Source of the DNA: a virus | Reading direction: 5' to 3' (one strand) | IMG/VR virus record: IMGVR_UViG_3300042691_052895 | Location: 1 to 35,571 of that record | Length of the DNA stretch: 35,571 nt | Notes under the pieces: model-generated | The model's database searches: none | Seen by the model: only the letters and a program-made list of their open reading frames with translations | What the model was told of the DNA's origin: nothing | Shown: positions 1,593-30,405 of the stretch, in pieces | Position numbering within the stretch: the first letter of the stretch is position 1 | How the letters are laid out: each line of letters starts with the position of its first letter | Position numbers and translations under genes: made by a program

Positions 1593-2383
1593 AGACGGTA
1601 ACAGCGCTGGAAGCCTACACGCCGACCTTCGAGATCGATGACGGTTTTCGGCTTTCCGTCGAGCCCACCATCGAGGCCGTCAGTAACGATGTCCGTCGCT
1701 GGCACGAGTTCAGTTTGCGCGGTGCCGACATGCACCTATTCGGTGCGTTCATGTGCGGCGTGGCGCTGTTACGCGCCCGCGACATCGTTGGCAAAGCCAA
1801 GCGCGGCGTTCACGGCAAAGGCTTTGACGGATTCGATACCTGGAAGCGTGAGCAGTTCCCTGAAATCTCTGAAAGCGCATTGGGCAATTACATGCGCTTC
1901 GCCGAAAACTGCTTCTTGTGCGGCAACGACTTACCTAAAAAGCCAAGCGTTGGCTTTTTAGGAAGCGGCCACAAAAATTTTACGTGCCCGACGACCAAAG
2001 AAGATGCCGGCACGTTGCTCTCACAGATCGGAACAGTCATGGACGGCAAGACCATGACCGAGATGTACCGGTCACAAAAGCGTATCCGCGAAGCGTTGCC
2101 ATCGGGCGGCGACAAGGGCAACCACAAGGCCCGCCGGACCAAGGCCGAGATCGAGTCGGCCAAGATCGAGGCCGACGCCGAGGTCGCTTACCAGGAACTG
2201 GCGGGCAGCATCGACATTGCGCTGGGCGATCACCGCTTTGCCCGCCTCAGCGACGAACACCTCGCCGCGCTGCGCGAGCGCGTGGTCGAACTCAAGGCCG
2301 AACTCGATGTCCACTGTTCGCGGCGCAAACTTAACCGCCTGCCCGCCAACTGGCGGCTCACGGAGAACCTGCCCCATGCATAG
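1589..2383 (+). CDS. Early-region hypothetical protein, possibly DUF3102-like
   Basis: The product is 264 residues and lies immediately before the transposase, overlapping it by 8 nt. The N-terminal half (about residues 40-110), including FDTWKREQFPEISESALGNY, resembles DUF3102-type phage proteins, where a helical domain precedes a putative DNA-binding segment. The C-terminal half is charged and helical (about residues 170-245), probably coiled coil. A perfect 13-bp palindrome at 1934-1962 is translated in frame as LPKKPSVGFLG, which looks like an inserted repeat tolerated by the protein. Function is unknown; position suggests DNA binding or control of early genes. Confidence 0.6.
   Translation: MKTVTALEAYTPTFEIDDGFRLSVEPTIEAVSNDVRRWHEFSLRGADMHLFGAFMCGVALLRARDIVGKAKRGVHGKGFDGFDTWKREQFPEISESALGNYMRFAENCFLCGNDLPKKPSVGFLGSGHKNFTCPTTKEDAGTLLSQIGTVMDGKTMTEMYRSQKRIREALPSGGDKGNHKARRTKAEIESAKIEADAEVAYQELAGSIDIALGDHRFARLSDEHLAALRERVVELKAELDVHCSRRKLNRLPANWRLTENLPHA
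1934..1962. repeat. Perfect 13-bp inverted repeat inside a coding sequence
   Basis: CCTAAAAAGCCAA and its exact reverse complement TTGGCTTTTTAGG flank a 3-nt loop (GCG). As RNA this is a strong hairpin that looks like an intrinsic terminator, yet it lies in the middle of a gene and is read in frame. It may attenuate transcription into the transposase, or it may be an interspersed palindromic element. Confidence 0.6.
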
Positions 2384-4799
2384 CGAGCCTGCCACCGCCG
2401 TTGCCGTCGTGCCCGTGTCTGCCGCGGCGCCGCTCACCGTCGTTTCCGCCCCGCTGGATGACCGGCTCTGGTTCGCCCAGTTGCCCGCCGACGAGCGGCA
2501 GTTCATCAGTCGTCGCCGCGCGGCCTTCCGCATCATCGAGCAACACATTGACCGTCACGGCCGCATCGTGATTCACGCGGGCGCCATCGCCGCCCATTCG
2601 ACTTTCGGCGCCGTCAAGGGATTCAGCGTCAAGAACCTGTCGAAATCCTACCGCGATTGGCTCGCCCATGGCCGCGATGATCGTCGCCTGGCTGACTGGG
2701 CCAAACACCCGTGGTTGCGCGACCTGGTCGAAGGCAAAGCCAACGCGCTTCCCACCCGGTTACATGCCGCTTTTATCGAGTTTTGCGGTGGCAAATTCCT
2801 CGAACACAAACGCAGCTTCGCCTCGGCCTACCGGGCCATCGTCCGCGACTGGCAATCCTCCTGGCACACCGGCCAGAAACTACCGGGCATCATGGCCGAT
2901 GGCACGCCCGGCTCCGCCCGCGATTACTGGCGCACTCGCGACGTGCGCACGCTCCAGTACGATCATTGCCCGCCCGATCTGCCGCCCGGTTGGACCAAGG
3001 GCAACCTCGAACGCGCCGTCCTGGCTTGGTGCCAGATCACGCCCGCCGAGATCGCGCTCGCTCGCCGTGGCACCGCCGCCATGCGGGATCATCTGCCCAC
3101 GATCCACTCCACCCGCCGCGAAATCGAGTACGGCCTGCATCTGTTTACCGACGATTTGCAGCACGATTACGAGGTGATCGCCCCCGCCGGCAGCGACCCG
3201 TTTGCCCGGCCCCTGGAGATCGGCATCCTCGAACTCGCTTCCGCCGTCTACGGGCCGTGGGTCGCCCAGCCCGCCATCCGCGATCCCGAGACCTTCAAGC
3301 GGCTCGGCCTCGGTTGGGAGAATGTCAAGTACGTGTTCGGGCTCTGGCTCGAACAGAACGGGATCCCTAACGATCACCCGATCTACCTCCACGTCGAACG
3401 CGGCACCGCCACGGTCCATCCCGATGAAGCCAAGCTCTGGCACGACATGTCCGAGGGCGTGATCAACATCTGCTACACCGAGATGCAAGGCCGTTACTGC
3501 CTCGCCTGGGATGAATCCCGCAAAGGCAATTTCCGTGGCAAAGCCGCCCTCGAATCCGCCTGGAATCTCCACCACAACTACGCCGACCATCTGCCCACCT
3601 ACCTCGGCCGCAACCGCGACAATCATCCCGCCATCACCCAGGGACAGAAACGCGAGACACTCGCCCTGCTCCAATGGGCCGCGTCCTTGCCCGCTGCCCA
3701 GCGCGGCGATCTGCAACTGCCAACGCTGTCCTGGGAGGAATGGACCGTCGAGCGCGAGGACCAGATCGCCCGCATCAACAGCCGCCTCGATCACAGCCTC
3801 GAAGCGTTCGACCAAGTCACCGAGTGGCGCCCGCGCGGCCTCGACGGCGCGCCATGGCGTTCGCTCGCCGCCCTCGAACAAGTTCCGCTCAAGCTCCGCG
3901 CGCCTGAGTTCATCGAGACCCGGCAACGCCTCGAATCGCCGCTCGAACGCAAAGCCCGGCTCCGCCAGCCCGCCCGCTGGTCGGCGTGTCCCGGCAACTG
4001 GCTCGCGATCATTTACGGGTTCCGTGCCCGCAAGATGACCGTCAACAAAGGCACGATCCACGTCGAACGCGGCACCGCCCATTGGTTCTTCATGGCCGAG
4101 TCCAAGGCCGCCCAGGCTGCCGCTGGCATCGTCGACGGCAAGGAATACATGGTCGCGTTCAACCCGCACGCGATGACCTGCTGCCACATCCTCGACGACA
4201 AGGGCGGTTACCGCGCCAGTTGGGAATGCCGCGTCACCCGCCGCGGCAACAAGGATGATGCCGCGCGCAGTTTCGCCCACCGGCAAGGCTGGCAGCAAGA
4301 GGTCATCGACAAGGTCGAGCGCCTCCTGATCGCCAGCGGCCAGATCGTCGATACCGAGATTCGGCGCGACTTCAACCGCGCCCTGGGCGCGCCCCAGTCC
4401 GGCCGCATCGAACTACTTTCCGCCGACCCAGACTCACGGAGTGCCGGCGGGGCCGACCGCGCAAGCACGGCCACCAGCGAGCCTGCAGACGAGAACACCG
4501 TCATGGGTGGGGTCTCGTCACCGCGATTGCAGGCTCGCCCATTTCCTGACCCGAATGACGCGGCCTCACCCGCGTCGAGCGCACCCCACCAACCTGCCCG
4601 CCCGTCTCTCAGTCTCGGCTCTGGGGCAGATGAAGAAGCACCCGCGCTCAATCCGGCGCCGCGCCTTGGACACGCGGCGCCGTCTCTTTCCGCGCAGATC
4701 GCCGCCGACGCCGTCAAGGCCCAGCGCGCGACCGCCAACAAACCGCGCCGCCACACCGACGCCAATGCCCGCTACCGGGCCGCGATCAAGAATCTGTAA
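2376..4799 (+). CDS. Mu-type DDE transposase (MuA-like)
   Basis: This 807-residue protein would be the transposase that cuts phage ends and joins them to target DNA. It has N-terminal helical DNA-binding domains (about residues 30-230), a RNase H-like catalytic core (about 255-450), a C-terminal Mu-transposase beta-barrel (about 540-620), and a disordered Pro/Ala/Arg-rich tail that in Mu contacts MuB. Aligned by eye to MuA, D260 fits the first catalytic Asp and E393 (in LESAW) the catalytic Glu. The second Asp position reads LHVERG (H339, E341) instead of a D-N-T-R-G-like string. I took the ATG at 2376, after GGAGAA and overlapping the upstream stop, rather than an upstream in-frame start at 2217. 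It is followed by the MuB-like ATPase. Confidence 0.85.
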   Translation: MHSEPATAVAVVPVSAAAPLTVVSAPLDDRLWFAQLPADERQFISRRRAAFRIIEQHIDRHGRIVIHAGAIAAHSTFGAVKGFSVKNLSKSYRDWLAHGRDDRRLADWAKHPWLRDLVEGKANALPTRLHAAFIEFCGGKFLEHKRSFASAYRAIVRDWQSSWHTGQKLPGIMADGTPGSARDYWRTRDVRTLQYDHCPPDLPPGWTKGNLERAVLAWCQITPAEIALARRGTAAMRDHLPTIHSTRREIEYGLHLFTDDLQHDYEVIAPAGSDPFARPLEIGILELASAVYGPWVAQPAIRDPETFKRLGLGWENVKYVFGLWLEQNGIPNDHPIYLHVERGTATVHPDEAKLWHDMSEGVINICYTEMQGRYCLAWDESRKGNFRGKAALESAWNLHHNYADHLPTYLGRNRDNHPAITQGQKRETLALLQWAASLPAAQRGDLQLPTLSWEEWTVEREDQIARINSRLDHSLEAFDQVTEWRPRGLDGAPWRSLAALEQVPLKLRAPEFIETRQRLESPLERKARLRQPARWSACPGNWLAIIYGFRARKMTVNKGTIHVERGTAHWFFMAESKAAQAAAGIVDGKEYMVAFNPHAMTCCHILDDKGGYRASWECRVTRRGNKDDAARSFAHRQGWQQEVIDKVERLLIASGQIVDTEIRRDFNRALGAPQSGRIELLSADPDSRSAGGADRASTATSEPADENTVMGGVSSPRLQARPFPDPNDAASPASSAPHQPARPSLSLGSGADEEAPALNPAPRLGHAAPSLSAQIAADAVKAQRATANKPRRHTDANARYRAAIKNL

Positions 4800-4830
4800 C
4801 CAACCAACCAAACAACCCACGGAGGCAAAC

Positions 4831-5883
4831 GTGAACCAAACCACCGCCGCAGAACCCGCCAACACCGGCGCCGCCAAAGCGCCCGCCAAACCGCGCGAAG
4901 CCGTCAAGGGCGACTACAGCGGCCACAACCGCGAGTTGATCGCCTACTGCGAATCGCGCGGCATCAAAGCCAAACGCATCGCCGCCCTGGCCAGCGCATC
5001 CATCGCCACCGCCAACAACTGGATCAACGGCAAACTCACCGGCAACATTGCCGGTTTCGAGGCCCGACTCCGCGCCGCCTTCGACCGGCTCGCCCGCCAA
5101 TCCCAGCGCATCAAGGTCGATGCCCAACTGGTCCCGACCAGTGTCAGCGAGATCGTCACCAAGGCGTTCGAGTCGGCCATGAATGACCGCGACTTCTGCA
5201 CGCTGACCGGCCCCGCGGGCACGGGCAAGACGATCCGCCTGGTCGCGCTGGCCGCCCAGCATATTGGCACGGTCTACGTGCCGATCTACGAATACAACCG
5301 CACCCGCTGGGGCATCCAGCGCATCGTCTGCGAAGTCGTCGGCACCGACAACTGGGACGATGCCATCGACAAAATCAGCGGCTCGACCGCGCCGCTGGTG
5401 ATCGACGACGCCCAGAAGCTGACCAACGACGCCAAGTGGTTGATCTTCGATGCGCACAAGGAGTTCGGCATCCCGGTCCTGCTGGCCGGCAACGAGTACA
5501 TGCTCGATGACATCCGCGGGGCCAGCGTCGGCATGCGCCGCCGCAATGAACAACGCGCCCGCCTGATCGGCGCCCAGTTCGTCATTGACCGCTACGACGC
5601 GCACGGCGATCTGGAACCGCTGTTCGAGCGCGACGAAGTCCGCGCGATCCTCGCGCAACACGAGCTGACCGCTCACAAGGAACTGCTCGACTGGTCGCTG
5701 CGCATCGCCAACCTGCCCGGTGAAGGCCATCTCGGCACCCTGCGTAAAGTGCTGTTGAAGACCCAGAAAATCGCGTTCAAAGAACCCGACCTGGTCACCG
5801 CCTTTCTGCAAGCCTGGTCGCTGGTCCGTCCCAAGGTCGCGCTGCTGACCGCCGACGAACTCACCCAACTCGAGGCCCGCTGA
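4831..5883 (+). CDS. MuB-like AAA+ ATPase, transposition target protein
   Basis: This 350-residue ATPase probably activates the transposase and delivers target DNA. An N-terminal helix-turn-helix lies at about residues 30-75 (KRIAALASASIATANNWING), as in MuB. The ATPase has a Walker A GPAGTGKT at 127-134 and a Walker B LVIDDAQ at 189-195. Start is GTG at 4831 with GGAGG 5 nt before it; the frame is open far upstream inside the transposase gene but only this start has a ribosome site. It follows the transposase by 31 nt, in the A-B order of Mu. Confidence 0.87.
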   Translation: MNQTTAAEPANTGAAKAPAKPREAVKGDYSGHNRELIAYCESRGIKAKRIAALASASIATANNWINGKLTGNIAGFEARLRAAFDRLARQSQRIKVDAQLVPTSVSEIVTKAFESAMNDRDFCTLTGPAGTGKTIRLVALAAQHIGTVYVPIYEYNRTRWGIQRIVCEVVGTDNWDDAIDKISGSTAPLVIDDAQKLTNDAKWLIFDAHKEFGIPVLLAGNEYMLDDIRGASVGMRRRNEQRARLIGAQFVIDRYDAHGDLEPLFERDEVRAILAQHELTAHKELLDWSLRIANLPGEGHLGTLRKVLLKTQKIAFKEPDLVTAFLQAWSLVRPKVALLTADELTQLEAR

Positions 5884-5885
5884 TC

Positions 5886-6146
5886 ATGACCACCCGCGAT
5901 CTGACCATCATCCTGCCCGCCACCGAGCGGGCGACGATCCTCGCCGCGCTCGCCGTTGCCGATCAGCGCGCCGACGATCAGGACAATTCCGATTGCACGC
6001 CGTCCTATCGGCTGCACACCCGTCTCTGCGCCTGGCTCCGCACGGAGCTGACCGGTGCCGAGCCGCTCACGCGCACCCGCGCGCTCAACGAAGTCATCAA
6101 GGAAGCCCGCCTCATCAACCCCGTCCTCAAGAAAGGAAATCGTTAG
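5886..6146 (+). CDS. Hypothetical early protein (86 aa)
   Basis: This is an 86-residue, mostly helical protein between the B-like ATPase and Gam. It starts 2 nt after the ATPase stop, so translation is coupled. No motif or membrane segment is recognised. In Mu the matching interval holds small semi-essential early proteins of unknown role. Confidence 0.6.
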   Translation: MTTRDLTIILPATERATILAALAVADQRADDQDNSDCTPSYRLHTRLCAWLRTELTGAEPLTRTRALNEVIKEARLINPVLKKGNR

Positions 6147-6148
6147 TC

Positions 6149-6739
6149 ATGTCTGCGAAGAAGTCAGTGAAGGTAAAAGTCGAAGCGCCGAAGATCCAAA
6201 CGCGCGGCCAGTTCGAGGAGGCCACCGGTCACCTGCAGCGCGCCGTGCTCGAGCGCCAGCAGATCAACACCGCGCTCGATCTGAAGCTCAACGAAACACG
6301 CCAAGAGTTCCTGCTCGAGCAGGGCGACACGTTGGCCGAGCTTGATGCCGAGATCGCGCTCCAGGAGAAGCAAATCCTCGCGTGGGCCAAGGCCAACAAG
6401 GAAACCGAGTTTAACGGCCGCCAGTCTCTCGAGACGAAGTTCGCCGTCGTGAAGTTCTTTAAGGGCCAGTTCAAGTGCGAATGCAAATCGAAATGGAACT
6501 GGGACAAGGTCCTCGCGCGGATTAAGGAATGCAGCCTCACCAAGCGGTTCATCCGCACCAAGGAAGAACCCAACAAGGAAGCGCTGATCGCCGCGCGCGA
6601 AGAAGTCATCCAATCCACTGAGGGACAGTTCACCGTGGGCGATCTCGGTGTCCGCGTCTTCCAGGAGGAATCCTTCACCATCGAAGTCAAAGCCGAACCA
6701 ACGCTTGAACCGCAGCCCGTTCTCGAGGAGGCCCGCTAG
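6149..6739 (+). CDS. gam: Mu Gam-like DNA end-binding, host-nuclease inhibitor protein
   Basis: The product is 196 residues, close to the usual Gam length. It has a long charged N-terminal helix (about residues 15-95, coiled coil) followed by a compact C-terminal domain containing the NGRQSLETKFAVVKFFK region that resembles the Gam fold. Mu Gam is a Ku-like protein that binds double-strand DNA ends and protects phage DNA from exonucleases. AAAGGA precedes the ATG by about 11 nt. Position after the B-like gene agrees with Mu. Confidence 0.75.
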   Translation: MSAKKSVKVKVEAPKIQTRGQFEEATGHLQRAVLERQQINTALDLKLNETRQEFLLEQGDTLAELDAEIALQEKQILAWAKANKETEFNGRQSLETKFAVVKFFKGQFKCECKSKWNWDKVLARIKECSLTKRFIRTKEEPNKEALIAAREEVIQSTEGQFTVGDLGVRVFQEESFTIEVKAEPTLEPQPVLEEAR

Positions 6740-7276: not shown

Positions 7277-7281
7277 ACCCA

Positions 7282-7384
7282 ACCACGGAGACACGGAGAT
7301 GAACGGAGTCAACAAACACAGAACCTCACGCCGCCGGCCGCGCCGCCGCCGCCTTCCGCTCCGTGCCCTCCGTGCCTCCGTGGT
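7282..7384. repeat. Interspersed inverted repeat, (CACGGAGA)-type arms
   Basis: Left arm 7282-7298 (ACCACGGAGACACGGAG) and right arm 7368-7384 (CTCCGTGCCTCCGTGGT) are complementary at 16 of 17 positions. The left arm is built of an 8-bp tandem unit. It occupies the only gap between two early genes, and the same left-arm sequence recurs at 13361. The Arg-rich interior (7299-7367) looks like a filler loop. Confidence 0.7.
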
Positions 7385-8920: not shown

Positions 8921-9490
8921 ATGAGCGACAAACAACGCTACCCGCTCGCCGATGCCCGCGCCGTGGCCGCTGATCTCTGCCGCGCGCTCGAACCACACTG
9001 CGAACGGATCACCGTGGCCGGCAGCATCCGCCGCCAGAAACCCACGGTCGGCGACATCGAACTCCTGTTCATCCCGCGCTTCGGTTCCCGCGTCGTCGCG
9101 CCCGAACTTTTCCCGCGTCACTGCGATCTCGCCGCGCTGGCCATCGAAGAACTGCTGCGCCAACAGATCCTCTCCAAACGCCCCAACAAAAACGGCGGCA
9201 CCGCCTGGGGCGAAAAAAACAAGCTGGCCGTCCACCGACCCACCGGCATCCCCGTCGATCTGTTCACGGCCACGCCGCACAACTGGTTCAATTACCTCGT
9301 CTGCCGGACCGGTGGCGCGGAAAACAACCGGCAGATCGCCATGGCCGCGCAAGCCCGCGGCTGGAAATGGAACCCATACGGCGCCGGCTTCGAGCGGGTC
9401 GCCTACTACGAACGGTTCGAGGTCCGCGCCGAGGAGGACGTGTTCCAGTTCGTCAACCTGCCCTACCTTGCACCGGAGGCCCGCGCATGA
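8921..9490 (+). CDS. DNA polymerase beta/PolX-like nucleotidyltransferase
   Basis: The product is 189 residues. The palm-domain signature of family X polymerases is present: AGSIRRQKPTVGDIELLF, with G34-S35 and metal ligands D45 and E47, and the third acidic ligand D113 in GIPVDLF. The following TPHNWFNYLVCRTGGAENNR matches the PolX thumb segment in which the T-G-S/A-x-x-x-N motif helps bind nucleotide. It lacks the N-terminal 8-kDa and fingers domains of true polymerases, so it is a minimal nucleotidyltransferase. The role in the phage is unknown (end processing or gap filling are options). GGAGG precedes the ATG. Confidence 0.82.
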   Translation: MSDKQRYPLADARAVAADLCRALEPHCERITVAGSIRRQKPTVGDIELLFIPRFGSRVVAPELFPRHCDLAALAIEELLRQQILSKRPNKNGGTAWGEKNKLAVHRPTGIPVDLFTATPHNWFNYLVCRTGGAENNRQIAMAAQARGWKWNPYGAGFERVAYYERFEVRAEEDVFQFVNLPYLAPEARA

Positions 9491-9666
9491 CCATCACCCT
9501 GCTCCGCCTCCACCTGCTCGCCTGGCTCGCTGCCAGCGTGCTGGCCGACAAACTCTGGGCCGCCACCCGCCACCTCGCCCACTGGACCGGCCGCCACTCC
9601 AGCCGCGCCGAAATGAAACTCGCCATCGCCAGCGAGAATGCGTGGAACGGTCGGGATCAGCGATGA
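9487..9666 (+). CDS. Small membrane-anchored protein (59 aa)
   Basis: This is a 59-residue protein that overlaps the nucleotidyltransferase stop by 4 nt and the methyltransferase start by 4 nt. The N-terminal 20 residues (ITLLRLHLLAWLAASVLADK) form a hydrophobic helix, followed by a basic, soluble tail. It is probably membrane anchored. No family is recognised. Confidence 0.5.
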   Translation: MTITLLRLHLLAWLAASVLADKLWAATRHLAHWTGRHSSRAEMKLAIASENAWNGRDQR

Positions 9667-10385
9667 CCACCAGCGCCCCAATCGTGGATTGCCGGACGGA
9701 TGCCGCCGCTGGTGGGCATTCGCCTGCATCCCGTGGTTCTGCGCCGTACTACCAACACGGCCTCGTAACGATATACCTCTCACCGGCGGAAGAACTGCTC
9801 GAAAGCCTGCCAGCGTGCGACCTACTGCTGACAGACCCACCGTACCCCGATTACGAAAAAGGGTGGGAAATACCGGACGTGTCATGGGTACTGGGAAACA
9901 TCCGAGCAAAGAAGAAACTCATCTTCTGGCCATGCCTCCTCGCACCACCACTACCGGCACCGAAAGCGGAACACATCTGGGAGAAACCCAACGGCAGGAG
10001 TGCCCACTGGTATGAGAAAATCTATGGGTACGGCAGCGTACAGGCTCGCAGCAAAATCTACCGCGTGGCAGCGATACTGCCCAACTACTCACAGTACGCT
10101 GCCGAATGCGTAAACCACCCCTGTCAAAAACCTCTCAAGCTAATCCGAAAGCTCATACAAGAAACCGCTCCCACCTGCATAACCGACTGCTTCATGGGAA
10201 GCGGCACGACCCTAGTGGCAGCGAAAGAAGCGGGGATACCGTGCATAGGAATAGACTCACGAGAAGAATACTGCGAGCAAGCAGCCAAGCGACTCTCGCA
10301 GGAACAACTAAACTTGGCGCAGAACGGGAAGGCCAGCGACGCGGCTGGCCGAATGCAAAAGGAGGATGAAAATGCTCGGAAGTAA
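9663..10385 (+). CDS. DNA methyltransferase, N6-adenine/N4-cytosine, beta-class order
   Basis: This 240-residue SAM-dependent methyltransferase has catalytic motif IV DPPY at 58-61 (LLTDPPYPDY), a later HPCQKP segment, and the SAM-binding motif I FMGSGTT at 177-183. Motif IV before motif I marks a circular-permuted amino-methyltransferase of the beta type. No partner nuclease is next to it, so it is probably an orphan enzyme that protects phage DNA or alters regulation. Start is the ATG overlapping the upstream stop; the frame is open far upstream but in shadow of the nucleotidyltransferase. Codon use shifts here: ATA, AGA, GGA and CTA codons become common, which continues to about 12060 and suggests recent acquisition. 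Confidence 0.85.
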   Translation: MTTSAPIVDCRTDAAAGGHSPASRGSAPYYQHGLVTIYLSPAEELLESLPACDLLLTDPPYPDYEKGWEIPDVSWVLGNIRAKKKLIFWPCLLAPPLPAPKAEHIWEKPNGRSAHWYEKIYGYGSVQARSKIYRVAAILPNYSQYAAECVNHPCQKPLKLIRKLIQETAPTCITDCFMGSGTTLVAAKEAGIPCIGIDSREEYCEQAAKRLSQEQLNLAQNGKASDAAGRMQKEDENARK

Positions 10386-10713
10386 CGACTACTCATGGAC
10401 GCCCGGCAAAGCGAAACGCAAAGCCACGTTCGATGCGCCGCATGGTTCGGCGTGGACTGACGCACGCCACAAGCCAAAGCGGGACGGGCAATATGCCTGC
10501 CTCACAAACTACGGAGACATCTTCGTGGTGGACTGCATCATGGGCGAGTGGGAACGGCCAGCACGCTTCAACGATGGTGAGCAAGTAGAATGGTGGATAC
10601 CACTACCATGCTCACGCGAGGCGACTGCCCACCAAACGCCACACATCGCCTATACGCCGAACGGTGAGTCCAGCGACGGCGCGACCCACCAGAAAGGAAC
10701 GAATGCCAAGTAA
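10372..10713 (+). CDS. DUF551-like small protein
   Basis: This 113-residue protein has a segment of about 50 residues with a D-x-R-H-K-P-K-x-D-G-Q-Y pattern ending EQVEWWIPLP, which fits DUF551, a phage-associated domain of unknown function. AAAAGGAGG at 10357-10365 is 6 nt before the ATG at 10372, which fits better than the ATG at 10366. It belongs to the lower-GC small-gene cluster. Confidence 0.6.
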   Translation: MLGSNDYSWTPGKAKRKATFDAPHGSAWTDARHKPKRDGQYACLTNYGDIFVVDCIMGEWERPARFNDGEQVEWWIPLPCSREATAHQTPHIAYTPNGESSDGATHQKGTNAK

Positions 10714-10957
10714 ATCCTCAGCGACCAAAGCGGCTCGCCGTTCGCTGGGACGATTGGTTGGGGCGCGCTGTGAAGCCAATGCGCACACTGAAAGCGGAGT
10801 GTGCGGAAAGCCAGCACGATACAACGTCCTCGAACAAGGCATCATCATTGCGGCTTGCGGTGGCTGCGCTGAACGGGCGCGAGAAAATGGGTACTGCGTC
10901 GTCAAGCGCCCCAACGACAAAGCTCTGCCGCAAGGTGGAGCGGAAGGACAACGATGA
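10703..10957 (+). CDS. Cysteine-containing small protein, possible zinc ribbon
   Basis: This is an 84-residue basic protein. Cysteines in ARCEAN, GVCGKP, AACGGC and GYC are spaced like a zinc-ribbon or small structural zinc site. It overlaps the stop of the DUF551-like gene and has AAAGGA upstream. It is possibly a nucleic-acid-binding protein; no family is recognised. Confidence 0.5.
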   Translation: MPSKSSATKAARRSLGRLVGARCEANAHTESGVCGKPARYNVLEQGIIIAACGGCAERARENGYCVVKRPNDKALPQGGAEGQR

Positions 10958-11346
10958 CCACGGAAAAGAACACCGCCCGCTCCACCTCGTTGGCAGAAGC
11001 GACGGGTTCGGATGCTCGACTGACGATGGCCGCGATGATGGCCCTGCTCTCAACGCTCCCGCCGCCGCCACAGTGGACAGCCTGCACTGCGAAACCAGCA
11101 CACGTCGCAAGGCTACGCGCCGAGTGCCAAGTAAAGAGTCCAAGCCCAACGCCACTCGGTGACACATTCGCTGGAATCCGACTCTATGAAAAACCGGGAC
11201 AGGTCGTCGATGTTTGGATGTTCAGCGACGACAAGGTGCTGCGGAAATATCTCAACGATGAACTTTCGGAACTAGACCTGATGCACATGATTGCTACTGG
11301 CGTATGTCATCCGAACGACCGGATGAGGGACGGAGGCCAGCGATGA
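10954..11346 (+). CDS. Hypothetical protein (130 aa)
   Basis: This 130-residue protein overlaps both neighbours by 4 nt. The N-terminal half is low complexity with a short Pro run (LPPPPQW). The C-terminal half (about residues 68-120, with VDVWMFSDDKVLRKYLNDEL) looks like a small alpha/beta domain. No family is recognised. It shares the lower-GC codon use of its neighbours. Confidence 0.5.
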   Translation: MTTEKNTARSTSLAEATGSDARLTMAAMMALLSTLPPPPQWTACTAKPAHVARLRAECQVKSPSPTPLGDTFAGIRLYEKPGQVVDVWMFSDDKVLRKYLNDELSELDLMHMIATGVCHPNDRMRDGGQR

Positions 11347-11564
11347 AAAACGCCAAGACTGCAAGCCAGACGCCGCCGCTGGACTCCGTTCCTCTCCATC
11401 CGATGGTTCGACGCTTTGGGCCGTGGCTGCTGAAAGAGCGCCCATGCGGAGACTTCGTGGTGGACCAACTCGACCGGGAGAAGATGCGCGTCCGTCGCTA
11501 CGGGCCATACAAAACCTACGCCGAGGCGGAGGAGAAGTACCTCGATCTCACAACGGAGGAATAA
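11343..11564 (+). CDS. Hypothetical protein (73 aa)
   Basis: This is a 73-residue soluble protein. Residues about 22-72 (FGPWLLKERPCGDFVVDQ, then GPYKTYAEAEEKY) resemble the compact beta-beta-alpha layout of small phage proteins in which a YxTxxEA helix ends the fold. Start overlaps the previous stop and stop overlaps the next start. No named family. Confidence 0.5.
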   Translation: MKNAKTASQTPPLDSVPLHPMVRRFGPWLLKERPCGDFVVDQLDREKMRVRRYGPYKTYAEAEEKYLDLTTEE

Positions 11565-11773
11565 TGTACGCCTGCAAACTGAAGCCAAGCACGAAACGAA
11601 ACCTCGAAGCCTTCCGACGCGCCAACCGCAAACGAGCCGTGCGGCTGCTCTTCGGGCGTGGGATGTCCAACGCGGAAATCGCCCGCAAGCTGCGGACGCC
11701 CTACAGCACCATCCGGCGCGACGCCATCGAGTACGAAGCTGAATGCTCGGCTCACTATACGTCGAACGGGTAG
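11564..11773 (+). CDS. Small helix-turn-helix protein
   Basis: This is a 69-residue basic protein. Residues about 26-55 (LFGRGMSNAEIARKLRTPYS) form a clear helix-turn-helix of the kind found in transposase/resolvase and sigma-like proteins, ending TIRRDAIEYEAE. GGAGG at 11556-11560 precedes the ATG. It could be a regulator of the middle or late genes, where Mu uses Mor and C, but it is smaller and not similar to them. Confidence 0.55.
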   Translation: MYACKLKPSTKRNLEAFRRANRKRAVRLLFGRGMSNAEIARKLRTPYSTIRRDAIEYEAECSAHYTSNG

Positions 11774-11780
11774 CTGAGGT

Positions 11781-12026
11781 ATGAGCGACGAACGAATACA
11801 CAAGCACGACTGGCAGGGCGGGCGGTGCATAACCTGCGGACTCGTCCAGCGTGAGGAGGCAAGCGAATTACCTCCAGCGGATGGTTGTGCCGATGAACTG
11901 CGCTCAATACGCAAGCAACTGACCGAACTACAAAACGCCGTGAAAGAGGTCAAACGCGAGGCCGGCGACAAAGGCCACACAATCATCCTGCTAGTCTTAT
12001 GGATACTACTACTCAAAAGCTGCTGA
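11781..12026 (+). CDS. Tail-anchored small protein with a Cys/His cluster
   Basis: This 81-residue protein has an unusual three-part design. The N-terminus carries HKHDWQGGRCITCGL, a likely zinc-binding His/Cys cluster. The middle (about residues 37-62) is a coiled coil. The C-terminus (about 66-79, ILLVLWILLLK) is a single membrane helix. It could anchor a small zinc domain to the cytoplasmic face of the membrane. Function is unknown. Confidence 0.55.
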   Translation: MSDERIHKHDWQGGRCITCGLVQREEASELPPADGCADELRSIRKQLTELQNAVKEVKREAGDKGHTIILLVLWILLLKSC

Positions 12027-12065
12027 GGAATCGGCACAACAGTTAATTCTACCAACAAGGTTGTT

Positions 12066-13049
12066 ATGAAAAACGGACTGGAATCTCGAATGCGGGTGGC
12101 GCTGGCCGAGCAGTGTTGTGCTCGCACCACCGTGGCGACGTACTTGTTTTGGGCTGCGCATCTGTACCGGTTCACGGCCAAGCCCGCGTCGCAATGGTCA
12201 GGCTCCGATGTGCAGGCTTGGCTCTGGTCGTTGCACCAGGCCAACTACTCCGCCGTCTCGCGCAAACAGGCGCTTTGCGCTGCCGCGTTCGTTTTCAAAC
12301 ACGTCTTGAAAGCCGATATGGGACGGCTCCAGTTGCCGCCGTTGCCGGTTGTGCATCGGCCGCTGAAGACGATCCCGACCCGCACCGAGATCGGGCGCAT
12401 GGCCGCCGGTATCCGCGGCCCGGTCAAACTGATGATCGGGTTGATGTACGGCTCGGGCTTGCGCGTCAGCGAATGCTGCCGGCTCCGCGTCCAGGACATC
12501 GATCTCGACCGGCTGCTGGTCAAGGTCCACGCCGGCAAGGGCGACAAATCGCGGCTCACCGTCTTGCCGGCCGCGCTGGTGCCGGCGTTGCAGCGGCACC
12601 TCGCCTGGCGGGCCGCGCTCCACGAGTGCGATCTCGCCAACGGCCAGGGACTGGTTGAACTGCCGGGCCGGCTGGCGATCAAATACAAGAGCGCCGCTCG
12701 CGAACTGCGCTGGCAATGGTTGTTTCCCTCGACGATCTTGCGCGGACAATACCGGTGGCACACCACCGACGAAGCCATTGCCAAACAAATGCGCGCCGCC
12801 GTCCGTGCGGCCGGCATCACCACGCGGATCACGCCGCACACGTTGCGGCACGCCTTCGCCTCCGATGCCCTCCGTGCCGGTAACGACATCAAGACCGTCC
12901 AGGACTGGCTTGGCCACGCCGATCTCAACACGACCGCGATCTATCTCCACACCGGCCACGGCCAAAGCCCGCTCGATGCCCCCGCCTCTTTGCCTTCTTC
13001 CCTCCTCCCTCTTCCCTCTTCCTTCTTGCCTGCCGAGGTGACCCCATGA
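12066..13049 (+). CDS. Tyrosine recombinase of integron-integrase (IntI) type
   Basis: This 327-residue recombinase has the catalytic set R133 (SGLRVSE), H258 and R261 (HTLRHAFAS), H284 (WLGHADL) and nucleophile Y293. Between the first Arg and the HxxR box it carries an extra segment (about residues 186-215, with LPGRLAIKY and RWQWLFPS) that matches the IntI-specific insertion used to bind folded attC sites. The C-terminal 20 residues come from a polypyrimidine repeat (12993-13027). An imperfect AACAA/TTGTT palindrome lies just before the ATG. A Mu-like phage integrates by its DDE transposase, so a second, integron-type recombinase is unexpected. I see no attC sites in the neighbouring genes. 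Confidence 0.85.
   Translation: MKNGLESRMRVALAEQCCARTTVATYLFWAAHLYRFTAKPASQWSGSDVQAWLWSLHQANYSAVSRKQALCAAAFVFKHVLKADMGRLQLPPLPVVHRPLKTIPTRTEIGRMAAGIRGPVKLMIGLMYGSGLRVSECCRLRVQDIDLDRLLVKVHAGKGDKSRLTVLPAALVPALQRHLAWRAALHECDLANGQGLVELPGRLAIKYKSAARELRWQWLFPSTILRGQYRWHTTDEAIAKQMRAAVRAAGITTRITPHTLRHAFASDALRAGNDIKTVQDWLGHADLNTTAIYLHTGHGQSPLDAPASLPSSLLPLPSSFLPAEVTP
12993..13027. repeat. Polypyrimidine heptamer tract in the integrase 3' end
   Basis: Thirty-five pyrimidines are arranged as CTTCCCT-like heptamers. They encode the Pro/Ser/Leu tail of the recombinase (LPSSLLPLPSSFLP), beyond the catalytic domain. This is the same family as 8862-8896 and 13208-13240. Confidence 0.65.
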
Positions 13050-13354
13050 GCATGTTCGGCAAACTCTACCGGTCCCAGCAATTCGAGAAACGCGCCCGCC
13101 AGCGACGTGGCCTCACCGAGGGCGAAGCTCTCGCCATCGCCGCCCGCGCCCGACGCGGCGAAGAAACAAGGAACAAGGAACAAGGAACAAATCCGGCCCT
13201 CCCTCCGCCTTCTTCCTTCTTCCCTCCTCCTTCTTCCTTGCCCTTGATCTGCGCCCGCTGCGACCAGCTCCGCCTCACCCTGCCACTCACCTTCCCCCAG
13301 CACATCCCCACCTGCCCCAAACGCGGCCAGGAAACGAAAGAGAGGCAGAGATGA
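13046..13354 (+). CDS. Small protein with repeat insertions and terminal Cys motif
   Basis: This 102-residue ORF overlaps the recombinase stop by 4 nt. Residues 1-38 are basic and helical. Residues about 40-68 come from two repeats, a GGAACAA heptamer array (RNKEQGTN) and a polypyrimidine tract (PPPSSFFPPPSSLP). The C-terminus has ICARCDQLRLTLPLTFPQH and a further Cys, a possible zinc finger. This may be an originally shorter protein interrupted by repeat insertion that preserved the frame. Function is unknown. Confidence 0.5.
   Translation: MSMFGKLYRSQQFEKRARQRRGLTEGEALAIAARARRGEETRNKEQGTNPALPPPSSFFPPPSSLPLICARCDQLRLTLPLTFPQHIPTCPKRGQETKERQR
13164..13240. repeat. GGAACAA heptamer array followed by polypyrimidine tract
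   Basis: 13164-13190 carries tandem GGAACAA units (three full copies). 13208-13240 is a pyrimidine run of CTTCTTCC/CTCCTTC type. The two are 17 nt apart and both are in frame with the gene at 13046. They recall the heptanucleotide STRR repeats of cyanobacteria in style, not in sequence. Confidence 0.65.
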
Positions 13355-13360
13355 AGACCA

Positions 13361-13386
13361 ACCACGGAGACACGGAGACACGGAGA
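13361..13386. repeat. Three CACGGAGA octamer units
   Basis: The sequence is the same as the left arm at 7282 but with one more unit, and no matching right arm is nearby. The last unit ends GGAGAAA directly before the ATG at 13389, so the repeat supplies the ribosome binding site of the next gene. Confidence 0.65.
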
Positions 13387-13670: not shown

Positions 13671-13683
13671 GGATGAATCACAT

Positions 13684-13757
13684 CCAAGGCACCAAGGCAC
13701 CAAGCGAAGCCGACGCGCTCAAGGCTTCCTCCTCTTCGTGTCTTGGTGCCTTGGTGG
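13684..13757. repeat. Interspersed inverted repeat, (AGGCACCA)-type arms
   Basis: The left arm 13684-13704 consists of AGGCACCA octamers; the right arm 13742-13757 (CTTGGTGCCTTGGTGG) is its reverse complement except at the last base. It fills the gap between two genes and ends 19 nt before the next start. Confidence 0.7.
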
Positions 13758-13776
13758 TCAATCAATCTGTCACGTC

Positions 13777-14124: not shown

Positions 14125-14413
14125 GTCGTCGTGTTCGCCCCGCTTCTGCCGGGGCGACCGAGCCCCCAACAAACTCCGCGCAACCCGCGCAACTCACGCA
14201 AGTCCGCTCACGGTTTGGTCGGTTCCCGCGTACAACCGCGGGCATGCAAAACAGAGGCAACTGTTCGGAACACAGAACTCAGCGCAATGGAGCGGCCCCA
14301 GCCCATGCTGCAGTTGCCTCTGTTGTCGTGAGCTGCCTGTCTCCCTGCGCTGACCTCTGCGTTTCGGCCGGTTGCCCGGCCCCCACCAACCCAAACACCC
14401 GGGACGTTCGCTA
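14110..14413 (+). other. Structured noncoding leader before the late genes
   Basis: This is about 300 nt without a credible gene. It contains three inverted repeats: an 8-bp stem at 14135-14142/14150-14157 (TCGCCCCG, 7-nt loop), a 6-bp stem at 14225-14230/14237-14242 (CCCGCG), and a perfect 14-bp pair AACAGAGGCAACTG (14250-14263) with CAGTTGCCTCTGTT (14311-14324) separated by 47 nt. Short CGCGCAAC direct repeats lie at about 14177-14192. It may be a 5' leader, a small RNA, or a recombination site. I did not find the attC core consensus at the arm ends. Confidence 0.5.
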
Positions 14414-16429: not shown

Positions 16430-17135
16430 ATCGCGATCCAAGTTTTCGACGCTGCCCTTTGCGATTCGCGAATCGCTCTACACGATGCTGCTTAACGGCG
16501 TCGCGTTCGAGCAGATCGTGGACTGGCTGTTTGAGCAGCCCAACGCCAACATCGGCGGCGCGCCCGCCGCCCAGCTCTGGACCGCCGACGCCAAGGATCT
16601 CGCCGCCGCGAAATGGAATTGCCAAGCCAAACTCTACGAACATTTCAAGTCCGAGGAATACCAAAGCTGGGCCCGGCGCAATGCCGATCGCAACGCCGAT
16701 CTCGTGTTCACCCAGCGCATGGAACAATCGCTCGGCCTGATCGGCGACGACGGCGACACCCGCTTCGTCCGGTCGCTGTTGCTCGAAGTCGCGCCGAAAA
16801 TCCGCACGAGCGAAGGCAAGCCCGAGGATAAGGCGTTCGCGTTCGCCGAGATCGCCCGGGCGTTGGCGATGCGCGATGAGGGCCGTCGCTCCGACGAGAA
16901 ACTGCGCCAGGCGGAAAAGAAGATCCAGATCGCGGAAGCCAAACTCGCGCTCGACCGCGAGAAGATGGAGATCGCCACGGCCGAGAAACTGCTCGATGAA
17001 TCGATCCGCGCCCAGGCGCTGGCCATCGAGACGGCGAACACGCCACGCGCCGAAAAAATCGCCAAGCTCCGCCAGCTCTATTTCGCCGACGTGGACCAGC
17101 TCCAAGCCAGCGGGGAGGTCGTGCTGCCAAAATGA
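16422..17135 (+). CDS. DUF3486 protein, Mu gp27-like probable small terminase
   Basis: This 237-residue protein has an N-terminal HTH-like segment (about residues 8-45: KFSTLPFAIRESLYTMLLNG, then FEQIVDWLFEQ) that fits DUF3486, where this part recognises phage DNA for packaging. A long helical coiled coil follows (about 150-215). It directly precedes and overlaps the large terminase by 4 nt, the arrangement of Mu gp27/gp28. It starts with GTG. Confidence 0.8.
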   Translation: MAKSRSKFSTLPFAIRESLYTMLLNGVAFEQIVDWLFEQPNANIGGAPAAQLWTADAKDLAAAKWNCQAKLYEHFKSEEYQSWARRNADRNADLVFTQRMEQSLGLIGDDGDTRFVRSLLLEVAPKIRTSEGKPEDKAFAFAEIARALAMRDEGRRSDEKLRQAEKKIQIAEAKLALDREKMEIATAEKLLDESIRAQALAIETANTPRAEKIAKLRQLYFADVDQLQASGEVVLPK

Positions 17136-18736
17136 AACGCTGGACCCGACGCAAATACCAGCAGGTCGCGCTCGTCGCGGTCCGGCAGACGCGCGTGCTC
17201 GGGTTGTTCTGGGCCCGCCAGTGCCGGAAATCCACAACGCTCGGCGATATTGCCTTTGACGAGATGAGCGCCACGGCGGGCCGTAATGTGATCGCCGCGT
17301 CGGCGTCGTTGTTGCTCGGCACCGAGTTGATCAGCAAGACCGTGACGGCCACCGAGCAGGCGTTGATCGTCGGCCGCGAGGCGCACGCGCTGCGGTTGGC
17401 GCTGGACCAGTGCGCCGCCGAACAGAAAGGCAAGCTCCAGCTCGTCACCGCCAACGCCGAGACCGGCCAGGTGTACGCCGCGATTGATGGCGACGGGTTC
17501 GCCGATCTCTACAAATCGGGCCGGCTCGAAATGCGGTTGATGTTTGACCGCACCAGTTATTCCCGGCTCCGCGTGATCGCGCCCAACCCGGCCACCGCGC
17601 GCGGCTGGACCGGCACGGTGTTGCGCGACGAGATCGGGTTCATCAAGAACGAAGCCGAAGTCCAGGAAGCGATCCGCCCGATCATCGACACCGACCCGGC
17701 ATTCAAGATGATCTACGCCTCGAACCTGCCCAGCGACGATCGGCATCCGTGGTTCGCGATGACGTTGCCCGCCGATCCCTCGCTGGTGTTCACGCCCAAC
17801 GCGAGCGGCCATTTCTATCGCGGCTCGACCGGCATCCGGATCCACCGGGTGGACATTGCCGACGCTTATGCGGCCGGACACGTCCTCTACAACGACAATG
17901 GCCAGCCGCTCACGCTCGAACAGTTCCTCGCCAGCGAGCCGAACAAGAGCATGCTGCGGAACAATTACACGCTGGTGCACGAGTACGGCGGCGCGGCCTC
18001 GGTGGACGCGCTGGCGTTGCACGAGGCCCAGAAACGCGGCGTCGGCCGGTGCCGGCACATCAACGTTGAGAGCGAGGCCGACTTCGAGGCGGGCGTGGCC
18101 TGGCTGCTGGAACATCTCACGCCCGGCTTGCCCACGGCCATCGGGTTCGACGTGGCCTCGACCGAGGGCGGCCAGTCCAACCCCGCCAGCGCCAGTGTCA
18201 CCCAACAGGCCGGCAACCAGTTCGTGACGGTCCTGAACCTGATCTGGAAATCCCGCAAGGAAGCGTTGCACCGCGCCCGGCTCGCCCGGCTGGCCACGGC
18301 CTGTGAACGGGCTGAAGCCCGCGCCCGCCGGGTCGTGATCGATGCCAGCAACGAACGGCTGTTCGCCGAGGGCACGCGCGATGCCGGTGTTGCCGGTGTG
18401 CCGGTGGTGCTGGTCCTTGGCGGCGCCAGCGTTGACCCGTTGCCGCCGGGTTACCAGGAACCGATCAACTGGAAGACCTATACCGGCGACCAGTACAGCT
18501 CCGCGCTCAACGACAACAAGTACACCACCCCGCCCGAACCGTACTTCGCCAAGGATCACCGCCAAGTCACCAAGGACCGCGGCGCCTACCGCTGCGAAGT
18601 GGACAACCGCGACGGCGGCCACGGCGACACCTTCGACGCCGGTAAACTCGCCCAAGTCGGGCTGGCGACCACCGGCCATGCCGGCTACGAGGCGACGGGG
18701 GCCACGGTCGCGGAAGAACGGGGGGCATTCGTATGA
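17132..18736 (+). CDS. Terminase large subunit, Mu gp28-like
   Basis: This 534-residue protein is the ATPase/nuclease motor that packages DNA. The ATPase has a terminase-type Walker A at about residues 28-35 (ARQCRKST) and a Walker B with D166-E167 (VLRDEIGFI). The RNase H-like nuclease begins at D340 (GFDVAST) and has a second acidic residue D404 (VVIDASN). These match Mu gp28-type large terminases that package by the headful mode, which is needed by transposable phages that carry host DNA at their ends. It overlaps the small terminase upstream. Confidence 0.87.
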   Translation: MKRWTRRKYQQVALVAVRQTRVLGLFWARQCRKSTTLGDIAFDEMSATAGRNVIAASASLLLGTELISKTVTATEQALIVGREAHALRLALDQCAAEQKGKLQLVTANAETGQVYAAIDGDGFADLYKSGRLEMRLMFDRTSYSRLRVIAPNPATARGWTGTVLRDEIGFIKNEAEVQEAIRPIIDTDPAFKMIYASNLPSDDRHPWFAMTLPADPSLVFTPNASGHFYRGSTGIRIHRVDIADAYAAGHVLYNDNGQPLTLEQFLASEPNKSMLRNNYTLVHEYGGAASVDALALHEAQKRGVGRCRHINVESEADFEAGVAWLLEHLTPGLPTAIGFDVASTEGGQSNPASASVTQQAGNQFVTVLNLIWKSRKEALHRARLARLATACERAEARARRVVIDASNERLFAEGTRDAGVAGVPVVLVLGGASVDPLPPGYQEPINWKTYTGDQYSSALNDNKYTTPPEPYFAKDHRQVTKDRGAYRCEVDNRDGGHGDTFDAGKLAQVGLATTGHAGYEATGATVAEERGAFV

Positions 18737-28611: not shown

Positions 28612-30405
28612 ATGGCTGACAACCGCAAATCGCTCGACCTGCTGATTCGCCTGCTGGCCGACACGGCCGGCGAGAAGGAAGTCCGCGCCGCGTTGGACCG
28701 GGTCACCGCCGCCGACACAAGCCGGACACAGGCCCAGCAGAAGGCGACCGAGTCCACCGCCAAAGGGCGCGAAGAAACCGTCAAAAGCGCCCAGGAACTC
28801 GGCCGATTCCAGAACGCGATCCGCATCGCCAGTGTCGCGCTCGAGAACGGGTTGTCGCCGCAATCGGCCGTGGCCGCGACCCGCTCGTTGATCGCGATGA
28901 GCGGCGTGGCCACCTCGCTCGCGGCCGGTCCGTTGGCCCTGCTCGCCGTGGCCGTGGCCGCCGTGGGCTTCGCGTGGCAGAAGTATAAACGCTACCAGGA
29001 CGAGGCCGCCAAATCCACCAAGGACGCCGACGAACAGATCGCCGCGCTCCAGAAGACCATCCGCGACCGCATCGCCGCGCTCGCCAGTTTGCCGGCTCAG
29101 GACCGGTTCCGGGAATGGGTGGCCGGTTACAGTGACGGCCTCGACCAGATCACCCAGGCCTACAGCAACGCCGCCGACCAGGCGACCCGGTTCCTGGAAG
29201 CCCAGAAGGCCAACGAACGCCGGGCCAGCGAACAGGAAGACGCCCAGCTCGCGCTCGATCTCGCCCGCATGGATGAGGCCGATCTGCCGGAGAGCGAGAA
29301 GATTGCCGGCCGCGCCTCGGCCCGGTCGGCGGCGGCCCAACGCAAATTCGAGCGCGGCCAACAGTTGCTCCAGGCCGAGGCCGAGGCGATTACCAACGCC
29401 ACCGGCGCGCGGCAACAGGCGGTCGGCGCGCTCGGGGTCGCGGCCGGTGAACAGGAACGCCGTGCCGAGGCCGTGCGCCGGGCCGAACAGGACCGGAACC
29501 AGGCGGTCTTGGATCGGCAGCGCGCCGCCGAACAACTCCAACAGAACCGCGCTGAGCTCGCGCGGATTCAGCGCGAAGGATTCGCGATGTCACCGGCCGA
29601 AGCCCAGTCTGCCCGGCAAGCCGCGTTCGCGGCCGGGCGCGGCTACGAAGTCCGGTACGAAGACATTCCGGCCGAAGCCCGGGCCCGCGCCGAGGCCCCG
29701 TTGCGCCAACGGATTGCCGAAGCGGAAGCCGCGCTCCAGTCCGCGCCGGAGCGTAAAGCCGCCGCCGAGGCGCTACTGCTCACGCCCGATGGACAGTTGA
29801 CCGATGCCGCCACCGAGCGAAAAAAAGCCGAAGAGGCCCGGCGCAAATACGAGGAGGAAGCGGCCCGGTTCGAGAAGGAACGCGCCGATGCGGCGTTCAA
29901 ACTCCAGCAGATTCAGGCCCAGCTCGCGGCCAACGAAAAAAAACAGGCCACCCTCAACGAGGCCGCCCAGATCAGCACGGGCACGGCCGCCCAGGCCGCG
30001 GCCAGCACCGAGGCCCAGAAAGCCGCCGCCGACAGACAGAAGGCCGACGACGAAGCGTTCGCACAGGCCGAGGCCCAAGCCAAGCTGGCCGGCAACAAGG
30101 CGTTGCAGGACCGGCTCGCCCTGGAACGCGCCCGCCGCCAGGCCGGCGAACCGCCCCGACCATTGGTCGAGGTCACCGCCGAATCGCAACCATTCGGGCC
30201 ACCGGCGCCCGCGCCGCAGCCGACCGCGGACCAGCTTCGCGCGCGGGCCAATGCCGCGCTGGCCGACCGCAATACGCAGCTCACCGCGCTGCTGCTGCAG
30301 TTGATCGGCGCGATGGAGTCTGGCAACGAACAATTGCGGGCCGCCCTGCAAAGCCAGATTGACCGGTTGAACGCGCGCACGGAAGGGCGGGTTGCCGGCC
30401 AATGA
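28612..30405 (+). CDS. Tape measure protein, short
   Basis: The product is 597 residues, with long Ala/Gln/Glu/Arg-rich coiled coils (about 28-80 and 130-560) and one hydrophobic segment (about 96-121, TSLAAGPLALLAVAVAAVGF). These are marks of tape measure proteins, which set tail length and later help DNA cross the membrane. At about 0.15 nm per residue the tail would be near 90 nm, short for a siphovirus. No lysozyme domain is visible. Confidence 0.7.
   Translation: MADNRKSLDLLIRLLADTAGEKEVRAALDRVTAADTSRTQAQQKATESTAKGREETVKSAQELGRFQNAIRIASVALENGLSPQSAVAATRSLIAMSGVATSLAAGPLALLAVAVAAVGFAWQKYKRYQDEAAKSTKDADEQIAALQKTIRDRIAALASLPAQDRFREWVAGYSDGLDQITQAYSNAADQATRFLEAQKANERRASEQEDAQLALDLARMDEADLPESEKIAGRASARSAAAQRKFERGQQLLQAEAEAITNATGARQQAVGALGVAAGEQERRAEAVRRAEQDRNQAVLDRQRAAEQLQQNRAELARIQREGFAMSPAEAQSARQAAFAAGRGYEVRYEDIPAEARARAEAPLRQRIAEAEAALQSAPERKAAAEALLLTPDGQLTDAATERKKAEEARRKYEEEAARFEKERADAAFKLQQIQAQLAANEKKQATLNEAAQISTGTAAQAAASTEAQKAAADRQKADDEAFAQAEAQAKLAGNKALQDRLALERARRQAGEPPRPLVEVTAESQPFGPPAPAPQPTADQLRARANAALADRNTQLTALLLQLIGAMESGNEQLRAALQSQIDRLNARTEGRVAGQ

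Follow-up and report, generated by a model that had tools for sequence, protein, structure and literature searches.

Canonical integrons, as represented by the class 1 IntI1 systems and the chromosomal integrons of Vibrio, combine an IntI integrase, an attI site adjoining intI and two-box attC sites that keep their extrahelical bases on the same side and form a chain of matching boxes; cassettes are inserted at attI and their genes lead away from it. In known integrons, bottom-strand selectivity orients the cassettes for expression from Pc (PMC8946536). In reverse integrons (Treponema denticola and others), intI and the cassette genes lie on the same strand, with intI transcribed toward attI and the cassettes following (PMC3607928, PMC6557892). 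Phage genomes can also contain IntI and attC: a survey of 10,705 phage genomes counted three complete integrons plus an integrase without cassettes, and the examples described (Vibrio p16/p42, Shewanella M16-3 and P1) consist of host or class 1 integron pieces whose genes have the canonical direction (PMC9892861).

Here we analyse a viral record of 35,571 nucleotides (IMG/VR IMGVR_UViG_3300042691_052895; hereafter the window, that is, this whole stretch of DNA) that resembles each of these systems in part. It shares the components and site features of canonical integrons listed above but differs from them in that its cassette genes face attI and mostly lack a stop codon of their own, its core sites conserve only GTT and no integron promoter is needed. 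As in reverse integrons, intI and the cassette genes are on one strand, yet intI runs away from attI and the cassettes come before it; and, in contrast to the phage examples above, the array is not canonical in gene direction. The order cassettes, attI, intI, all co-directional and with intI leaving attI, matches neither the divergent nor the reverse integron, and a literature search (with most subscription papers and all bioRxiv preprints outside its scope) returned no description of this layout. Our computations establish what the integrase is, how the attI/attC sites are chained and oriented, which way the genes run and in which phase, that cassettes differ among relatives, and that whole cassettes differ between members of a sister lineage; on this basis we read the locus, with a probability of roughly 0.86, as a complete integron that forms part of a Mu-like phage's early region, with cassette genes inverted relative to attC.

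Phage setting

The features that define the phage background are as follows.

2,376–4,799 (+): divergent Mu-type transposase, start approximate (25% over 664 aa to the transposase of the related phage L008)
4,441–5,883 (+): MuB-like transposition ATPase, true start further in (phrog_296, 7.2e-24)
5,993–6,739 (+): Mu Gam-like protein (PF07352, 2.5e-15)
8,921–9,490 (+): DNA polymerase X-like gene, outside the integron proper (PF14791, homology)

The array is flanked on the left by the MuB-like ATPase and Mu Gam, and on the right by portal, head protease, major head and tail genes, in agreement with an earlier reading made from the sequence alone (the sequence-only reading), which had placed the integrase inside a Mu-like phage. 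MuB and Gam are recognized by profile, and the transposase by similarity to relatives and by acidic motifs; the window is read as a divergent Mu-like phage because of the match to the L008 transposase and the acidic motifs that its transposase has in common with those of other relatives. The window transposase has no Pfam or PDB match, as is also the case for the divergent Mu-type transposases of L053 (3,814–6,273) and L048 (854–2,776), and as a query for related phages it found none. In the alignment, an ERG/ENG motif suggests that the second catalytic aspartate of these divergent transposases may be replaced by glutamate. Searches of 50,697 phage records gave no match to the putative terminase (17,132–18,736) or to the ORF at 30,402–32,378, and an Rfam scan at gathering thresholds and a tRNA scan of the window gave no matches. 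A polX-like gene lies near intI in three phages of the integrase clade (the window, L002 and L008); a search with it returned 14 IMG/VR loci, including that of the L002 contig, and the other 13 contigs lack a window-type IntI, save for one weak partial match, so that polX does not mark the integron.

Integrase

12,066–13,049 (+): intI, integron integrase, 327 aa (TIGR02249 profile, IntI4 structure match, tree)
12,660–12,731 (+): IntI-specific segment LPGRLAIKYKSAARELRWQWLFPS (alignment to IntI4, phage IntI and Vibrio/Shewanella IntI)

The top NCBIfam model for the product of intI is TIGR02249 (integron integrase) at 251.7 bits, which falls just under the curated cut-off of 265 bits and lies well above the Xer profiles (XerA 138, XerC 123 and XerD 116 bits). 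The top solved structure is V. cholerae IntI4 (2a3v, 6e-47), in an alignment that spans the IntI-specific segment, and R133, K158, H258, R261, H284 and Y293 are invariant in an alignment with five phage relatives. Maximum-likelihood trees place the protein in a clade of 12 phage proteins (support 100/100) located among IntI1, IntI2 and Vibrio-type IntI, apart from XerD and other Xer-like proteins; the window integrase thus carries the IntI segment and does not group with Xer. These comparisons identify the protein as a true IntI-type tyrosine recombinase, as the sequence-only reading had proposed, with a search against IntI and XerC/D profiles as its suggested check.

No close relative of the window IntI came up among plasmids (best 40%) or, in a search of limited sensitivity that gave a single distant match at 25%, among 84,980 genomes of bacteria and archaea; nor did 50,697 phage records contain its clade (best about 41% identity). 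A DAMO-enrichment phage (Virus Rctr41k, KX853513.1) has a gene annotated as xerD (4,680–5,678) that groups with IntI in the trees; an attC chain was sought upstream of this gene and none was found.

Interspersed mini-repeats occur in the window at 7,279–7,299, 12,979–13,034, 13,161–13,256, 13,358–13,386 and 13,674–13,764, including the 3' end of intI and the region just downstream. Their kinds are CCAACCACGGAGACACGGAGA (twice), the hairpin CACCAAGGCACCAAG and runs of CTTCCCTCTTCC and AACAAGGAAC, and L008 carries similar ones. Mini-repeats of this type are typical of Verrucomicrobiota and Planctomycetota genomes, and may hint at the host of the phage. Separately, the intergenic gap at 14,229–14,377 holds large nested inverted repeats, including the perfect 14-base pair AACAGAGGCAACTG/CAGTTGCCTCTGTT; the strong inverted repeat at 14,255–14,377 was not counted as an attC, being beyond intI and outside any cassette.

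attI and attC sites

Six attC-like sites and an attI lie at 9,642–12,040, with attI 26 bases ahead of the intI ATG. From attI outward, they are:

12,034–12,063 (-): attI, box GCACAAC, junction AA^C at 12,039/12,040, then platform sequence (chain end, attI alignment)
11,761–11,890 (-): attC F, boxes GTCGAAC/GTTGTGC, weak stem (box chain; no significant fold)
11,310–11,412 (-): attC E, boxes TCCGAAC/GTTCGAC (arm alignment, box chain; fold z -3.9)
10,909–11,012 (-): attC D, boxes CCCCAAC/GTTCGGA (arm alignment, box chain; fold z -3.7)
10,656–10,763 (-): attC C, boxes GCCGAAC/GTTGGGG (arm alignment, box chain; fold z -1.0)
10,319–10,451 (-): attC B, boxes GCAGAAC/GTTCGGC (arm alignment, box chain; fold not significant)
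9,642–9,742 (-): attC A, boxes GTGGAAC/GTTCTGC (arm alignment, box chain; fold z -3.2)

The sequence-only reading had seen no attC core sites here, and a strict GTTRRRY/RYYYAAC scan likewise gave no credible attC in the window, at settings that detected the sites of the phage contigs L002 and L009. Such a search misses the window sites because core conservation in this phage is limited to GTT/AAC: none of its seven cores fits the GTTRRRY consensus (which is not strictly defining), to which those of its relative L002 conform. We therefore applied a relaxed scan, in which the arms of every AAC...GTT pair are aligned and scored against a threshold of at least 20, together with a test for chains of boxes. 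Between 9,490 and 12,066, five sites reached this threshold against 0.25 expected from shuffled sequence.

The strongest evidence for the array is provided by the end boxes. In six of six cases, reverse-complementing the outer box of an attC gives exactly the core box that follows in the direction of the integrase (in order, GTTCTGC/GCAGAAC, GTTCGGC/GCCGAAC, GTTGGGG/CCCCAAC, GTTCGGA/TCCGAAC, GTTCGAC/GTCGAAC and GTTGTGC/GCACAAC), and the last partner, GCACAAC, is the attI box at 12,034. Shuffling the sequence 400 times never gave a chain of more than one site that ended within 60 nt of the intI start, compared with six sites in the window. A chain of this kind is the expected trace of circular cassettes inserted successively at attI. 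As single-stranded hairpins, three of the six attC sites have strong folds (z -3.2 to -3.9); the other three do not. The locus, in sum, holds an IntI-type integrase, an attI beside intI and an attC array with paired boxes and extrahelical bases, an arrangement from which we infer that the IntI of this phage would recombine attI with attC.

Site polarity was taken from the end of the array rather than from the chain, because the chain alone is symmetric. The terminal partner box lies at the intI end in the six loci checked, with none found at the far end. Extra bases are in the right arm (+ strand) in 28 of 29 attC sites of the clade; with respect to intI, this is also the side on which the canonical Vibrio and Shewanella arrays (L004 and L003) carry them. 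Site polarity is therefore that of a normal integron, and attI is located immediately before intI.

Cassettes and reading phase

The box chain delimits six cassettes, listed from the newest position outward.

11,767–12,039: cassette 1, adjoining attI; gene 11,781–12,026 (+), 81 aa (junction boxes; GC 0.549)
11,316–11,766: cassette 2; genes at about 11,346–11,564 and 11,564–11,773 (+) (box chain)
10,915–11,315: cassette 3; gene 10,954–11,346 (+), junction read-through (box chain, phase analysis)
10,662–10,914: cassette 4; gene from 10,664 or 10,703 to 10,957 (+), junction read-through (box chain, phase analysis)
10,325–10,661: cassette 5; gene 10,366–10,713 (+), junction read-through (box chain, phase analysis)
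9,648–10,324: cassette 6, the oldest kept; DNA methyltransferase gene ending at 10,385 (+) (PF01555, 1.4e-17; phrog_67, 8.3e-31)

The second gene of cassette 2 encodes a putative helix-turn-helix protein, on the strength of weak matches. The array has a GC content of 0.581 against 0.649 for the rest of the window, in keeping with the lower GC noted earlier for this run of small genes. The same reading held that these genes were not standard cassettes; this stands in so far as the cores are relaxed and the genes inverted relative to attC, but the small genes upstream of intI are gene cassettes.

The cassette genes are on the intI strand, facing attI and intI and co-directional with the phage early operon, in contrast to the divergent canonical layout; attI lies upstream of the intI start, in contrast to the reverse layout. 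This orientation rests on protein families and reading phase, the former being methyltransferase families (in the window and L078), methyltransferase-like proteins (in L075 and L081) and PHROG families (in L045 and L048). A Pc-type promoter would read the cassette genes antisense, and their expression would instead be driven by the phage early operon.

The reading phase at the junctions is fixed. Across the clade, of the open frames that run into the AAC box, the longest keeps AAC as an in-frame codon at 26 of 29 junctions, and the phase-0 frame is open for at least 40 codons upstream at 24 of 29. Most cassette genes, lacking their own stop, cross the junction in one phase and take their stop from the next cassette or attI; as one phase stays open through the junction, they end inside the next attC (in the window with the tails NGESSDGATHQKGTNAK, NDRMRDGGQR and NG, each followed by a stop) or inside attI (NSVINKPGSD and stop in L045, and similarly in L048, L075 and L078, a few bases before the intI ATG). 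Canonical arrays read on the wrong strand also favour phase 0 (12 of 17 junctions), in part because TAAC blocks one phase, so the box sequence alone favours this phase to some degree; long open frames, however, are scarcer in these controls (5 of 17 against 24 of 29; Fisher p 0.0005). Read-through in a fixed phase, with the stop in the next site, makes the cassettes interchangeable.

Relatives and a second phage lineage

Beyond the window, the integrase clade comprises L008, L002, L045 (with L047, the same phage), L048, L070, L071, L075, L076, L077, L078 and L081 in IMG/VR, all of them metagenomic contigs, with integrases 49–70% identical to the window protein. The same kind of attI, with a platform sequence of similar form in the attI alignment, and at least one attC-like site occur in 10 of these 11; L071, cut at the contig edge, has the attI sequence. 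Box chains of three are found in L008, L002 and L045, the single link of L048 is imperfect, and exact links across the clade total 28, window included. Related Mu-type transposases are encoded on 9 of the 12 clade contigs and Mu Gam on 8 of 12, the window again included. BLAST among the window, L008, L002, L045 and L048 found no cassette gene in common. The content beside intI is thus variable among the clade phages compared, one of the outcomes that the sequence-only reading had asked after. DNA methyltransferases recur among the cassettes (PF01555 in the window and L078; similar-looking methyltransferase-like cassettes in L075 and L081). A further phage contig (L009, IMG/VR 3300032018_000020, 412–735) has an attC, an attI box, an intI at 41% to the window IntI and a small gene on the intI strand.

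A distinct lineage, L017–L021 in IMG/VR, has its IntI beside IntI1 in the tree. It resembles the window in having an attC chain that ends at an attI beside intI, genes that run toward intI, mostly in a fixed phase, and a tail encoded by attI (NLNSTTPDVA and a stop); it differs in IntI lineage, in attI and in its shorter attC sites, and L017 and L018 carry a T7-type terminase domain instead of Mu genes. L017 (3300042366_000722) and L018 (3300017747_004159) are 99.98% identical over 8,493 bp, with identical downstream halves of attI. Between TCTCAAC and attI, L017 has one cassette; L018 has a 92% identical version of it with an additional cassette on either side, and every cut falls at an AAC box. 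L019, L020 and L021 have phage-type arrays of 8–10 sites upstream of intI with common and differing cassettes, and the blocks that differ between L020 and L021 match cassette boundaries; cassette genes of these arrays include those for an Rv2179c-type exonuclease, a DHH-type protein and, just under its cut-off, a weak Mom-like protein. The L017/L018 pair shows that phage arrays of the window-type design change by whole cassettes; such direct gain or loss is observed in this sister lineage and not in the clade of the window.

Alternative explanations

Points against an integron reading include the cores that depart from GTTRRRY, the three attC sites without a significant fold and the TIGR02249 score below the cut-off. 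The first two would also suit a bacterial integron that was captured by the phage, a process that is documented (PMC9892861), and is now inactive with decaying attC sites. We regard such a relic as unlikely: the integrase is kept throughout the clade and attI with attC in nearly all of it, the box links are exact, which argues for little decay since insertion, and the cassette genes are of phage type and face the phage way, unlike those of the captured Vibrio and Shewanella arrays.

The remaining explanations are all very improbable. The canonical polarity of attC relative to intI could mean that the real cassette genes of an ordinary integron lie on the minus strand, but methyltransferase and phage-family matches fall on the plus-strand ORFs, which also remain open across the junctions in one phase, and minus-strand ORFs are mostly shorter. 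A chromosomal integron misjoined to phage DNA might be suspected in metagenomic contigs with host-like mini-repeats just after intI; against this, a single 35.6 kb record holds the array between phage early and head/tail genes, the array is found again in independent contigs, and the bacterial, archaeal (limited sensitivity) and plasmid searches gave no close relative. Tyrosine recombinases are common in phages and Mu-like phages have no known need for IntI, yet a Xer-like resolvase or phage integrase beside an ordinary early operon is refuted for the array by the six-box chain ending at attI and its recurrence in relatives, and contradicted by the tree position.

The sequence-only reading had offered gene acquisition by the phage (a mobile integron) or multimer resolution. 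IntI phylogeny, the attI/attC chains in the window and its relatives and the differing cassettes bear out the former, and the latter finds no support; the opposite outcome that it had named, a protein outside the IntI clade without variable content beside it, did not materialize.

Proposed mechanism and significance

Under the complete-integron reading, IntI would recombine the attC hairpin of a circular cassette, a presumed intermediate, with attI, a site of simple structure just upstream of the intI start codon. Given entry at attI, new cassettes would adjoin intI, the newest becoming the last gene before it, and older ones would be pushed away. The cassettes would extend the phage early operon, with intI as its last gene and no integron promoter in use. 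Expression of intI would probably proceed by read-through of the array, as attI directly precedes intI and the last cassette frame of several phages ends near its start.

We further think it probable that this is a third integron architecture, present in at least two IntI lineages, in which sites of the usual polarity are combined with mostly stop-less, fixed-phase genes that face attI and are expressed from the phage operon as interchangeable modules, and which would serve as the phages' own pool of accessory genes such as DNA methyltransferases. The likely benefit of the array is the exchange of small accessory genes, among which DNA methyltransferases are prominent; because these recur, evasion of host restriction is perhaps one such benefit.

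Searches that depend on GTTRRRY may under-report arrays of this kind. The opposite gene polarity raises two testable points, namely what determines how genes are oriented with respect to attC and where the cassettes originate. Phages with integrons of their own would change the view of phage integrons as fragments from bacteria; site-specific cassette exchange would offer a concrete mechanism by which part of the small early genes in such phages turn over, and would be a possible channel through which cassettes pass between phages and bacteria.
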